Shown here piece by piece: positions 1,647 through 45,933 of a stretch of DNA of 64,000 bases (the stretch's first letter is position 1; each line of letters opens with the position of its first letter). The translations under genes and the position numbers were made by a program. Origin of the DNA: Parundibacterium terreum (GTDB taxonomy: Bacteria; Pseudomonadota; Gammaproteobacteria; Burkholderiales; Burkholderiaceae_D); the NCBI RefSeq assembly GCF_014636315.1, contig NZ_BMED01000006.1:434001-498000 (forward strand). The letters run 5' to 3'. The notes beneath the pieces were generated by a model. That model did not search any database, had not been told where the DNA came from, and worked only from the letters and a program-made list of their open reading frames with translations.

Positions 1647-2096
1647 ATGACCGACACTATGAGTGGCGATTTTGCACGCGTAAGGCGCATCGTTAAAACG
1701 GATGAATTTTCATCCGTTTTTCGTTTGCGCCCCGTGCAAAAAACACCACACTTCGTGCTGTATGCAAGGCCCAACGCCCTGACGCATGCGCGCCTTGGCG
1801 TCGTTGCAGCAAAGCGGTTTGCGCCGCGTGCTGTCACGCGCAACACGATCAAACGTGTCACGCGTGAAATCTTTAGACGGTCTGCACTAATCAACGTGGA
1901 TTGCATTGTGCGCTTGTCCAAGCCAGTCAACAGCAAGGCAGGTCCTGCCACTACCGCGCAGCTCAAGCGCGAGTTGCGGGGCGAGATCGTGCGCCTGTTT
2001 GCTTCGCAGGTTTTGCCCGCCGGCATGAACGCTGCGCCGGCGGATATTGCCGGGCCTCCGGCAACTCCGGCGATCCTCAGCGGCAATGCGACATGA
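1647..2096 (+). CDS. rnpA: Ribonuclease P protein component
   Basis: RnpA is the protein subunit that helps the RNase P RNA remove 5' leaders from pre-tRNAs. The 149-residue product has the expected basic core, including [26 protein letters not shown] and [20 protein letters not shown]. The latter corresponds to the family's conserved RNR-type motif, with T in place of the second R. It has a C-terminal Ala/Pro tail not needed for the fold. An in-frame ATG at 1659 is an alternative start, and no strong ribosome site separates the two. Its stop overlaps the yidD start in an ATGA arrangement, indicating translational coupling. Confidence 0.96.
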
Positions 2097-2479
2097 AATC
2101 CCCGGTGCAATCCCTGCTGACGATTTTATTGCGCGGATATCAACTGGGCATCAGCCCCATGCTGGGACAAAACTGCCGTTTTTATCCGACCTGCTCCAAT
2201 TACGCGATAGAAGCCATCAGGGTGCACGGCGCTGCCAGGGGAAGCTTGCTGGCAGGCAAACGCTTGTGTAAATGCCATCCCTGGCATCCGGGCGGCATCG
2301 ATATGGTGCCTGGCTCACCTGGAGCGGAAGCGGCCGGCGAGCAGAAAAAAGCTGAAAATCAGCAAGTAGTCCCCACATCCGACGATGGTTCTATACAATC
2401 CGCCGGTGCGCCTGCAGAAGCAGGCAGGCAGCGCCCGGTCTTTTTAGAGCCTTCCGGTCATTCTTCACCATTCTCCTGA
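2093..2479 (+). CDS. yidD: Membrane protein insertion efficiency factor YidD
   Basis: YidD is a small membrane-associated protein thought to assist YidC-dependent insertion of inner-membrane proteins. The core is diagnostic: [35 protein letters not shown], then [11 protein letters not shown] chose the ATG at 2093, which overlaps the rnpA stop; the longer open frame upstream is only rnpA read in another frame. At 128 residues it is longer than many YidD proteins (about 70-100). The extra length is a hydrophilic, low-complexity C-terminal tail of about 45 residues. It ends 8 bases before yidC, supporting one operon. Confidence 0.95.
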
Positions 2480-7811: not shown

Positions 7812-8449
7812 AAATTCTGGAATCTTTCTTTTGTTGCACAAAAAAAGTGCCCTCGGCGAGAGTGCACAATAAGACGGGCACGCCGACTCTTGGAGCAAGA
7901 ATTATATTGCCATTTTGCAAGTATTTGTAGAAAATCCAGCATTTCTGAAACGCTAGGCCTTTGCCCAAGAACTCGGGCGGCAGGCGATAACCAAGCTCCA
8001 CTTCGGCAAACGGCGGCTTATACTTCAGGCCGCCGAAACAATCAGTGCTGGAATCCTCTGACATGCGTTCTCGCCGCTGCGCCCAAGAGCCTCGATATTC
8101 AGCAAGTCTCTATACGAAGTGATTAAAGGTGACTGGTGAGTGATAGATCATTGACCTGGAAATTTCAGAATACTCTAGCTCAAAAAAAGTTCGCGGGTAT
8201 TCGGAAAGCGGGACTACTCCACGCGTTCGAATGAGCCTCATCTTCGTACCGAGAGCGAAAACGTTTGTAAGGTTTAGGGCACTTGGCCACGGTGGCTCTT
8301 TATGGAAGTTTCGAGCGACGACGATAATTTTTCGTTGGGCCATCTTTCGAGAAGCCACACGCTACGCGACAGCGACAGATTATTGAGAGGGGTATCTCGA
8401 GTTCACCACGTTCATTGGGGCCAATGAGCTGCGTTTATGTGGTTCAACA
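7812..8449. other. Accessory intergenic region with decayed sequence
   Basis: This 638-base stretch has visibly lower GC than its surroundings. It holds the GNAT fragment (7955-8039). It also contains an 82-codon minus-strand open frame (8110-8358) that I cannot assign to any family and that has no convincing ribosome site. The rest shows no recognisable gene. The region looks like the eroded left part of the patch that contains the broken methyltransferase. Confidence 0.5.
7955..8039 (-). pseudogene. GNAT acetyltransferase gene fragment
   Basis: The minus strand reads GGLKYKPPFAEVELGYRLPPEFLGKGLA, about 28 residues. This matches the acetyl-CoA-binding core region of the intact GNAT gene at 9397-9912, which reads SGLKYMPPFAEVELGYRLLPEFWGKGLA. 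By hand the 85-base segments 7955-8039 and 9593-9677 differ at about 8 positions. Sequence on both sides of the fragment is unrelated, so only this piece survives. The divergence suggests a remnant of a related but not identical gene rather than a fresh duplication. Confidence 0.8.
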
Positions 8450-9396: not shown

Positions 9397-9912
9397 TTAC
9401 AAATCCCGTGCAAACATATTCATATCCACGCCCGGAACTAGCTCCATCCTGACTTGCTTCTCCACTTCAAATCCCAGCTTGCGCGCGACATTCGCCGAAC
9501 CCTCATTCTCCGGGTGCACCAGTGCGATCAGCTTGGTCAGGTTCAAGGATTCCTTGCCAAATTTGATGGAGGCTTTTCCGGCTTCCTGCGCCAGGCCTTT
9601 GCCCCAGAACTCCGGCAGCAGGCGGTAACCCAGCTCCACTTCGGCAAATGGCGGCATATACTTCAGGCCGCTGAAACCTATCAGTTGCCCGCTTTCTTTC
9701 CACACCACGGCAAAGCGGCCGAAGCCGTATTTTTTGTAATCGGTGACTGGCCCTTCCAGCAGGCTGGCGCGCACTTCTTCCACCGATGCCATCGGTTTGT
9801 TGCCGACATAGCGTATTACCTCGGGGATCACGCACAGCGGGAAGTAGGCCTCCGCATCGTCAGTCGTAAAGGGGCGCAGCAGCAGGCGTTCGGTTTCTAT
9901 GATGGTTTTCAT
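9397..9912 (-). CDS. GNAT family N-acetyltransferase (RimJ/RimL-like)
   Basis: The 171-residue protein begins IETERLLLRPFTTDDAEAYF, the usual start of RimJ/RimL-type acetyltransferases. It contains the acetyl-CoA-binding region ELGYRLLPEFWGKGLAQEAGKA and the ENEGSANVARKLGFEVE segment. It would transfer an acetyl group from acetyl-CoA to an amine, but the substrate cannot be deduced. It is a single gene next to the methyltransferase remnant, and its paralogous fragment lies 1.6 kb away. Confidence 0.9.
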   Translation of the reverse strand: MKTIIETERLLLRPFTTDDAEAYFPLCVIPEVIRYVGNKPMASVEEVRASLLEGPVTDYKKYGFGRFAVVWKESGQLIGFSGLKYMPPFAEVELGYRLLPEFWGKGLAQEAGKASIKFGKESLNLTKLIALVHPENEGSANVARKLGFEVEKQVRMELVPGVDMNMFARDL

Positions 9913-18361: not shown

Positions 18362-18592
18362 ACTTTGTGGATATAAGCCGGGGGTGGCCCGGCGGCCACT
18401 CACTTTTCTTTGCTTCGCCAAAGAAAAGTAAGCAAAAGAAAGGCGACCGCAAGCCTCGCCCCTTCGGGGTTCCCGATTGTGCAGTACAAAAAATGGGAAA
18501 CGGGCGAAACTCGCTGCGCTCAGACACCCCCGTTTCTGATCCATTTTCTGTACCGCACAATCGGCGAGGCTCCGAGCGGTTTAACATCAAAA
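18362..18592 (+). repeat. Dispersed multi-hairpin repeat, copy 1
   Basis: This sequence recurs at 45685-45933 in the same orientation. It contains a GTGGCC/GGCCAC hairpin (18384-18399). A second hairpin, ACTTTTCTTTG/CAAAGAAAAGT, has a CTTCGC loop (18402-18429). A long composite stem pairs 18473-18504 with 18529-18564 through CCGATTGTGC/GCACAATCGG, GTACA/TGTAC, AAATGG/CCATTT and GAAACGGG/CCCGTTTC. It is followed directly by the CAACTG tract. The translated motif FFASPKKSKQKKG is a familiar artefact of similar repeats in many beta- and gammaproteobacterial genomes, from memory. No transposase is encoded. Confidence 0.9.
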
Positions 18593-18593
18593 G

Positions 18594-18719
18594 CAACTGC
18601 AACTGCAACTGCAACTGCAACTGCAACTGCAACTGCAACTGCAACTGCAACTGCAACTGCAACTGCAACTGCAACTGCAACTGCAACTGCAACTGCAACT
18701 GCAACTGCAACTGCAACTG
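18594..18719 (+). repeat. Hexanucleotide tandem repeat, 21 perfect copies of CAACTG
   Basis: The 126 bases 18594-18719 are 21 uninterrupted copies of CAACTG. The tract is the 3' tail of repeat copy 1; copy 2 ends in only three degenerate units (CAACCG, CAACGG, CAACTG). Perfect identity means it is likely to vary in length by slippage. It lies 112 bases upstream of the start of the alkylation-repair gene. Confidence 0.98.
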
Positions 18720-18831
18720 CAAAAGCAGGGCAACGGGAGAATCAGCTTGCCCCTGGTGTGTGCGCAGCGGTTCTAATTGCAATGTCCGAAAACGGCTAGA
18801 CGCTGGATTTGGGTGCGCGTATAACGTCGTC

Positions 18832-45684: not shown

Positions 45685-45933
45685 ACTTCGTGGATACAAG
45701 TCGGGGGTGGCCCGACAGCCACTCACTTTATTTTGCTTCGCCAAAATAAAGTAAGCAAACAAAAGGCGACCGCAGACTTGCCCTTCGGGTGATGGCGCTA
45801 GCGCCATCACATTTTGCGCATCACAAAAAATGGGAAATGAACGAAACTCGCCTTCGGCTCAGACAACGTTCATTTCTGATTCATTTTCTGTGAAGCACAA
45901 AATGCTTCGTCCCCAGCGGATGAAGTTCAAAAA
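45685..45933 (+). repeat. Dispersed multi-hairpin repeat, copy 2
   Basis: It has the same order of elements as copy 1 at 18362-18592. The GTGGC/GCCAC hairpin is followed by ACTTTATTTTG/CAAAATAAAGT with the same CTTCGC loop (45725-45752). A long composite stem then pairs 45810-45843 with 45867-45904 through TCACA/TGTGA and GAAATGAACG/CGTTCATTTC. A perfect 22-base palindrome at 45789-45810 replaces a small hairpin of copy 1. Many stem positions differ from copy 1 yet remain paired. It lies between the 5' end of the hydrolase gene and the 3' end of the livM-like gene and fills most of that 325-base gap. Confidence 0.9.

Follow-up and report, generated by a model that had tools for sequence, protein, structure and literature searches.

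According to PMC3733652, REP units are palindromes of 20-40 bp, and REP-type elements lie mostly between convergent or co-directional genes. The arms of the repeat described here, unlike such units, are about 210-250 nt long and hold a predicted three-stranded pseudoknot. Known pseudoknots with a triple helix are, as far as we know, RNA domains or riboswitches, not repeats; one of them, SAM-V, is an RNA pseudoknot with U.A-U triples in its major groove. Comparison of copies reveals a dispersed inverted-repeat element of wide occurrence, with a predicted pseudoknot whose third strand covaries with its stem.

Two solo arms and their family in the genome

The window, by which we mean the whole stretch of 64,000 nucleotides that was analysed, belongs to an assembly of 6.37 Mb. 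The original prediction described two copies of a dispersed repeat in it whose stems stay paired in spite of changes on both sides; both copies lie where they had been placed, every stem quoted for them is present, and inspection of the two confirms that the doubly changed stems still pair (Table 1). Two things had been missed: each copy is an arm of an inverted-repeat unit, and the short hairpin changes in concert with a third segment (Y1 in Table 1).

Table 1. Positions of the two arms and of their structural elements, numbered along the window
Feature	Position	Strand	Remarks
A-type arm	18362..18592	-	Solo, no B partner found adjoining; 85-94% identical to other full A arms
A arm, P5 element	18377..18399	-	GTGG/CCAC and GCCGGG/CCCGGC, both with compensatory changes
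A arm, stem S2	18399..18433	-	Short hairpin of the original prediction; base CTTAC/GTGAG plus Y2 and R strands; 18399 common to P5
A arm, S1 3' strand GGCGA (minus strand)	18415..18419	-	Within the short-hairpin loop
A arm, third strand Y1 (TTTCTTTT on minus strand)	18434..18441	-	Mirror of Y2
A arm, S1 5' strand TCGCC (minus strand)	18442..18446	-	
A arm, outer stem P1 (AGCCTCGCC/GGCGAGGCT)	18452..18571	-	Strands 18452-18460 and 18563-18571
A arm, long composite stem P2	18481..18556	-	GCGGTACA/TGTACTGC, AAAATGG/CCATTTT, GAAACGGG/CCCGTTTC
Perfect hexamer array (CAACTG)n	18593..18722	.	21.7 copies; position of the linker in complete units
B-type arm	45685..45933	-	Solo; place G000:C6:479685
B arm, P5 element	45700..45722	-	GTCGGG/CCCGAC
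B arm, stem S2	45722..45756	-	Y2 TTTATTTT, R AAAATAAA on minus strand; 45722 common to P5
B arm, S1 3' strand GGCGA	45738..45742	-	
B arm, third strand Y1 (TTTTGTTT on minus strand)	45757..45764	-	G opposite the sole T-A pair of S2
B arm, S1 5' strand TCGCC	45765..45769	-	
B arm, B-specific hairpin (GTGATGGCGC/GCGCCATCAC)	45789..45810	-	
B arm, long composite stem P2	45818..45896	-	

At least 47 pieces of the genome match copy A, at 30 places that were all inspected; note that this count comes from the 40 of 58 first-look candidates that were scored and that some arms give two pieces. Of the 30 places, 16 hold inverted pairs; the other 14, which include both window copies, hold solo arms. An inverted pair measures 449-653 bp and consists of one A-type and one B-type arm facing apart around a linker; one of the pairs, L031, has only a fragment of the A arm. 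To B arms, the A arm of the window is about 72-80% identical. The linker of complete units is degenerate and of a CAAAAGC type, whereas a perfect CAACTG array stands beside the window's A copy; short tandem arrays of CTTGCA, CTTGAT and TTGCTG, related to the CAACTG array, adjoin arms in Xanthomonadaceae.

Some arms carry additional sequence. An 85-bp GC-rich palindromic sequence (GGTGTAGCAGGGG...CCTGCAAGGG), a second, nested repeat, is inserted in five B arms (L034, L053, L054, L055 and L058) and also in L063, at the same loop position in this genome and in another genus. The short-hairpin loop of both A and B arms (L039, L040, L044, L051, L054, L055) can hold a 14-bp insertion (ACCTCGGCGGCCCC). 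Elsewhere in the window, two 89-nt stretches (7951-8039 and 9589-9677) that are 90% alike lie 1.6 kb apart and perhaps belong to neighbouring paralogous genes.

The plus strands of the two window copies fold much more favourably than dinucleotide shuffles (z = -5.8 for A and -7.2 for B), and none of 200 shuffles did as well in either case. Our own covariation test, with shuffles and column slides as controls, drew on 33 of the 45 arms in the genome (16/18 A and 17/27 B), those that carry insertions or a large deletion being excluded. Across 42 named pairs, 92.3% of cells are paired compared to 84.7% after shuffling, 136 cells have changed on both sides compared to 50.5, and covariation reaches 0.248 compared to 0.121 ± 0.007, a set of values that 0/500 shuffles attained in each case; sliding the columns by 1-3 gave at most 0.092. 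Two other measures were less favourable: 21/500 shuffles reached the 14 pairs with a change on both sides, and all 500 reached the 22 further pair types. Note that the cells are not independent: because much of the change separates the A from the B sub-family, there are fewer events than cells. Helices differ in how well they hold across A and B together. P1, drawn from A, is only 73% paired, while in the GAAACGGG-type helix every pair holds (100%), four of them doubly changed and none changed on one side only. The two helices of P5, each with compensatory change in one pair (AU/GC, 18 and 13; CG/UA, 25 and 5), can coexist only as a small pseudoknot; GTGG/CCAC and GCCGGG/CCCGGC of the A arm may form a second knot of this kind. 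That selection for structure, beyond repeat homology, lies behind the paired changes, as had been suggested from the two window copies, is supported by compensatory changes across many copies, genomes and families.

The third strand and the predicted pseudoknot

On the minus strand the core of the A arm reads TCGCC-TTTCTTTT-GCTTAC-TTTTCTTT-GGCGA-AGC-AAAGAAAA-GTGAG. The short hairpin is TTTTCTTT/AAAGAAAA, and the pyrimidine segment upstream of it, TTTCTTTT, is the mirror of its pyrimidine arm. Further copies repeat the relationship with other letters: TTCTTTT/TTTTCTT, TTTTCTTT/TTTCTTTT, TTCTTTCT/TCTTTCTT, TTCTTTTT/TTTTTCTT and TTCTTCTT/TTCTTCTT, and in Xanthomonadaceae TTCTCTTT/TTTCTCTT and TTTCCTTT/TTTCCTTT, twelve different exact mirror patterns in total. 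That the segment is a mirror and not a direct copy points to a parallel pyrimidine third strand (T.A-T, C.G-C), since that geometry requires a mirror. The short hairpin, taken on the minus strand, would then be half of a pseudoknot of the H type that includes a parallel third strand.

Could Y1 instead be a direct repeat, and so an alternative Watson-Crick partner for R? Among 89 asymmetric arms whose strand was fixed by TTAC/GTGA alone, with Y1 left out of account, 79 are exact mirrors and none is an exact direct copy. Allowing shifts of register, the mirror fits better in 91 of 101 asymmetric arms and the direct repeat in 6, with 4 ties, and we reject the direct repeat. Triples are T.A-T or C.G-C in 788 of 815 cases in the 112 arms outside Xanthomonadaceae, most of them from Oxalobacteraceae. 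For all 147 arms, two of which were taken on the wrong strand and counted as misses, 626 of 657 triples at positions 4 and up are canonical; we quote these positions because the search patterns had preset triples 1-3 for Xanthomonadaceae, and the strict pattern two Y1 bases. Over the 55 distinct arm types, again at positions 4 and up, 234 of 251 match, compared to 158 ± 7 with shuffled third strands (0/10000), although arms are related and all such counts overstate the number of independent events.

The exceptions fall into few kinds. In six arms, all from this genome and including window copy B, S2 contains one T-A inversion and the third strand has G there. Of the natural bases, G best recognises T-A in the pyrimidine third-strand motif, and Griffin and Dervan reportedly found in 1989 that it is the best third-strand base for a T-A inversion; copy B carries this G. 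In two further classes, of five and three arms, G faces a G-C pair at the third strand's base end, and the remaining exceptions are single mutants or shifts.

The other parts of the knot vary in step as well. Comparative evidence agrees with loop 1 lying as a parallel third strand on the purine strand of S2, and there are two stems, of which the second uses the loop of the first, with both S1 and S2 kept by compensatory change. S1 pairs the bases before the third strand with the hairpin loop. It is TCGCC/GGCGA in 76 of 84 cases outside Xanthomonadaceae, and within that family GGCCC/GGGCC, GACCC/GGGTC, GGTGC/GCACC, GGCTC/GAGCC, GTGGCC/GGCCAC, AAGCGT/ACGCTT, TCGGC/GCCGA and others; it thus differs by clade yet still pairs. 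Its 37 distinct types form 4.30 bp on average, compared to 2.09 ± 0.18 when shuffled; 32 of them form at least 3 bp, there are 23 distinct helices of at least 4 bp, and in a few arms S1 amounts to only 0-2 bp. The 5-bp base of S2 covaries too (CTTAC/GTAAG, GTTAC/GTAAC, GTGAC/GTCAC, CATAC/GTATG, CCTAC/GTAGG). In pseudoknots a base of about 5 bp suits a short link that crosses the deep groove.

Which strand carries the structure can be read from pairs that depart from Watson-Crick pairing. Using pair sets predicted without G-T pairs and scoring departures on the minus strand, we count 21 G-T and 7 C-A cells in 14 arms sorted as A, 14-22 and 7-17 in 21 arms sorted as B, and 191 and 91 in 75 arms from other genomes. 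By number of affected pair positions, G-T exceeds C-A by less (8 versus 5, 8-12 versus 2-6, and 40 versus 38 for A, B and other arms), and at 40 versus 38 in the largest set the asymmetry by position is weak. At the base of S2, TTAC stands opposite GTGA in 145 of 192 collected arms, which makes a G-U wobble on the minus strand and a C-A mismatch on the other, and in TTAC/GTGA arms the pyrimidine strand Y1 is on the same strand throughout, one blank row apart. Given that G-T departures outnumber C-A departures and that the third strand is kept on the same strand, selection seems to be directed at a single strand, of RNA or single-stranded DNA, which is the complement of the strand on which the repeat was first described. 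The original prediction had allowed for RNA or a cruciform. That choice is now narrower: the G-T excess and the same-strand third strand speak for a single strand, be it RNA or single-stranded DNA, and a symmetric duplex cruciform seems disfavoured.

Occurrence and probable insertion

Similar repeats had been mentioned for many beta- and gammaproteobacterial genomes, and we do find the module in Oxalobacteraceae, Xanthomonadaceae, Burkholderia, Pasteurella, Aeromonas and others. A pattern for the genome's own family, in which both arms were free and an Oxalobacteraceae-type loop and tail were fixed, matches 31 of 195 genomes (this one included) and 12 of 44 genera, and its reversed control matches once. 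Arms were confirmed in loci titled Herminiimonas, Herbaspirillum, Undibacterium, Collimonas, Glaciimonas and Oxalicibacterium; matches titled Massilia were due to chance (L147 has no arm and its genome no match). Many of the at least 107 matches listed in a wider genome scan are likewise chance coding matches. In Xanthomonadaceae, the family of a Xanthomonas genome, a second pattern matches 36 of 79 genomes with up to 80 copies, the control matching none.

Records of a plasmid collection contain the module in Variovorax, Burkholderia, Paraburkholderia, Caballeronia, Pasteurella, Aeromonas, Pseudoalteromonas and Ilyobacter. No annotated feature underlies the best of these places, several of the records being barely annotated, and a good S1 is not visible in two of eight such sequences inspected (Paraburkholderia and B. 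cenocepacia). The Ilyobacter plasmid NC_014633.1 has five further places (L317, L320-L323) with a short loop and no S1, unlike L315; these may be a degenerate or simpler form in another phylum.

Other searches yielded little. A strict pattern applied class-wide matches 9 of 369 genomes, of which the eight besides this one have a single match each, without pyrimidine arms, and look like chance. E. coli, searched with the Pasteurella core, and phages, searched with the window's A arm, gave no match, and two viral contigs that match the core pattern have no arm. One follow-up pattern proved too narrow, recovering three of six records. At gathering score, Rfam 15 matches nothing in the window or in 20 loci, and 37 of 41 sub-threshold Rfam matches lie on the hexamer array or its edge. 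Titles and abstract openings returned by a literature search, in which subscription journals were thinly represented, contain no description of this element.

Two sites allow comparison with relatives. The gene flanking one unit (L045) is present in 37 of 38 other congeneric genomes drawn, and at 29 of 29 loci examined it adjoins the partner gene with no arm in between; one of these empty loci carries an unrelated hairpin. At the site of a second unit (L038) there is no arm in 29 of 29 congeneric loci, with the partner gene within reach in 20, bearing in mind that badly decayed arms would escape detection. The family pattern gives 33 strict matches in this genome and 0-2 in ten congeners. Most simply, the unit would be a lineage-specific insertion that has multiplied in this genome. 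No target-site duplication was seen by eye at its 16 units.

Inverted units also occur in other genera and in Xanthomonadaceae. At L090 (1502-2660), an ORF of 194 aa (1760-2344, minus strand) lies between two divergent arms that are 1.1 kb apart; it has no Pfam family above cut-off and is possibly a cargo gene. In genome G648 (L324-L338) units often end in a CGTCATCCCGGC-type hairpin, either CGTC-tagged REP or dRS3-like, and these units are composite mosaics of two repeat families.

Explanations and known systems

Comparison establishes pairings, three-strand covariation, an asymmetry between strands and lineage-specific presence at two sites, all as patterns of aligned copies. The explanation we favour, and think rather probable, is a REPIN-like mobile element recognised through its single-stranded triple-helix knot. 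Each copy would be one arm of a miniature mobile element, with the inverted arm pair usually the spreading unit. As a single strand, the minus-strand arm would fold into the long composite hairpin followed by an H-type pseudoknot, composed of S1 (TCGCC/GGCGA here), Y1 as loop 1, and S2 with its 5-bp base and 7-8 bp of Y2.R. Y1 would be the parallel Hoogsteen strand in the S2 major groove, forming T.A-T and C.G-C triples. We infer that the knot is formed in cells, that its shape is what a trans-acting enzyme recognises in the single-stranded element, and that spread is driven by such recognition, in the way hairpins serve REPINs and IS200/IS605 elements.

Which enzyme might this be? A Y1 (HUH) transposase would be the likeliest candidate. 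Among Xanthomonadaceae, a Y1_Tnp gene is present in 16 of 16 genomes with at least four copies compared to 35 of 63 others (p = 0.0004), and among genomes of at least 3.4 Mb in 15 of 15 compared to 22 of 31 (p = 0.02). In the window's own family Y1_Tnp is uninformative because it is nearly ubiquitous (180 of 195 genomes). The Y1_Tnp of a 71-copy genome passes the NCBIfam cut-off for REP-associated tyrosine transposases (134.8 versus 80 bits); that of a 26-copy genome (G588, 71 bits) and the sole one of the window's genome (52 bits) fall below it. The latter protein (L218, 1465-2184) reads LPECLHLL in the expected HxH region, which we take to be the place of that motif, with the first histidine apparently missing. 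It is therefore perhaps catalytically dead, and perhaps a non-catalytic relative of RAYT. Adjacency of the RAYT kind must be rejected: no arm lies beside Y1_Tnp at any of 31 loci examined (that of this genome and 30 of 111 from Xanthomonadaceae, with flanks of up to 1.5 kb). Our leading guess is a RAYT-like enzyme recruited in trans.

Unlikely, though the strongest of the rivals, is an independent, structured non-coding RNA that serves the host, for instance as an sRNA or part of an RNP, the inverted pair being two divergently transcribed copies. The elaborate, RNA-like architecture with its compensatory changes would suit such a molecule, as would the excess of G-T over C-A departures on one strand, the divergence of the arms around a central linker, and the occurrence of U.A-U major-groove pseudoknots in RNA, of which SAM-V is an instance. 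However, copy numbers from 0 to 80 within one family and empty sites in congeners look selfish, and the repeat belongs to no Rfam family.

An effect in cis on mRNAs, with the arms blocking exonucleases or terminating transcription behind genes, we regard as improbable. Placement is what speaks for it. Ten of the 16 units in this genome lie between convergent genes and five between co-directional ones; one has an uncalled flank and none was called divergent. Across 160 arms from all sets, classified with another ORF heuristic, 64 are convergent, 43 sense, 41 antisense and 12 divergent, where gene calls are heuristic ORFs and two of 30 arms from this genome come out as divergent. Although the structure of one strand is under selection, antisense arms between co-directional genes are about as frequent as sense arms (41 versus 43). 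This lack of sense bias gives no indication of a cis role, and we reject a strand-specific role on mRNA; what the placement indicates is avoidance of promoters. Nor does a U-run follow P5 in either window copy.

Two further explanations have very little probability in our estimation. A bacterial SINE-like retroelement, whose RNA is reverse transcribed and then inserted, would fit a structured RNA in dispersed copies with short tandem hexamers adjoining the arms, and RVT_1 is somewhat commoner in Xanthomonadaceae genomes with any copy (11/36 versus 4/43, p = 0.02). But RVT_1 has no match in the window's genome and is absent from 13 of the 16 Xanthomonadaceae genomes with at least four copies (3/16 versus 12/63 others, p = 1), so that a reverse transcriptase route is not supported for high-copy genomes. 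The same slim chance we give to a role in duplex DNA, where the mirror repeat would form H-DNA, or the entire element a cruciform with an effect on supercoiling or replication. Mirror repeats of the polypurine-polypyrimidine kind are the textbook sequence for H-DNA. But H-DNA would have no need of R and S1 sharing a strand, and the two nevertheless covary; the G-T asymmetry between strands also speaks against either form.

Returning to a mobile element recognised through its knot, we tentatively suggest, at rather less than even chances, that it represents an unnamed class, spread from Beta- and Gammaproteobacteria to a plasmid of Fusobacteriota and recognised via a three-stranded pseudoknot of its own single strand. 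If three-stranded recognition is true, this would be the first such mobile DNA, with base-triple covariation as its evolutionary record; we know of no earlier mobile DNA that depends on a triple helix. Three segments covary over 7-8 consecutive triples, in twelve exact patterns, while S1 turns over between clades, and to our knowledge triple helices seldom receive such clear comparative support. Should the knot serve as the recognition signal of a mobile element, it would be a new nucleic-acid address beside hairpins, attC sites and terminal inverted repeats, and would explain common intergenic repeats of large bacterial families that are missing from Rfam. It hints at a way of recognising and copying DNA or RNA not known before, and the three-strand model can be tested directly with three-way rescue mutants.

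How does the element compare with what has been described? Like MITEs (BOX, RUP, ERIC, Correia), it is short, non-coding and modular with inverted ends. It differs from them in that no target duplication was seen by eye and no parental transposon found, and in that conserved structure resides in the arms and not in short ends. The end hairpin of the G648 units resembles dRS3 of the neisserial intergenic mosaic elements (NIMEs), whereas the units inspected in the window's genome have no dRS3-like hairpin; we know of no pseudoknot in NIMEs. With REPINs it shares dispersed inverted pairs of palindromic units, a copy number that is uneven among related genomes and a proposed structure-dependent recognition. 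At the foot of the hairpin, where a conserved tag of the GTAG type would be expected, a check by eye found no fixed tag (GTAG or GTGG at P5 in arms of this genome, GTGA/GTAA at the base of S2 elsewhere). Many intergenic copies, inverted pairs and convergent or co-directional placement are likewise features of REP/BIME/REPIN repeats with RAYT (TnpA-REP), according to PMC3733652. Unlike in REP-RAYT systems, however, no arm lies beside the Y1_Tnp loci examined, and the Y1 protein of this genome looks degenerate. Despite the REPIN-like layout we therefore do not file the element as a REPIN, since RAYT adjacency fails. With RNA triple-helix pseudoknots, as exemplified by SAM-V, it shares a loop 1 predicted to form U.A-U and C.G-C triples along the deep groove of stem 2. 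Unlike them, it places this fold in a high-copy dispersed repeat, in which the third strand covaries over 7-8 consecutive triples.
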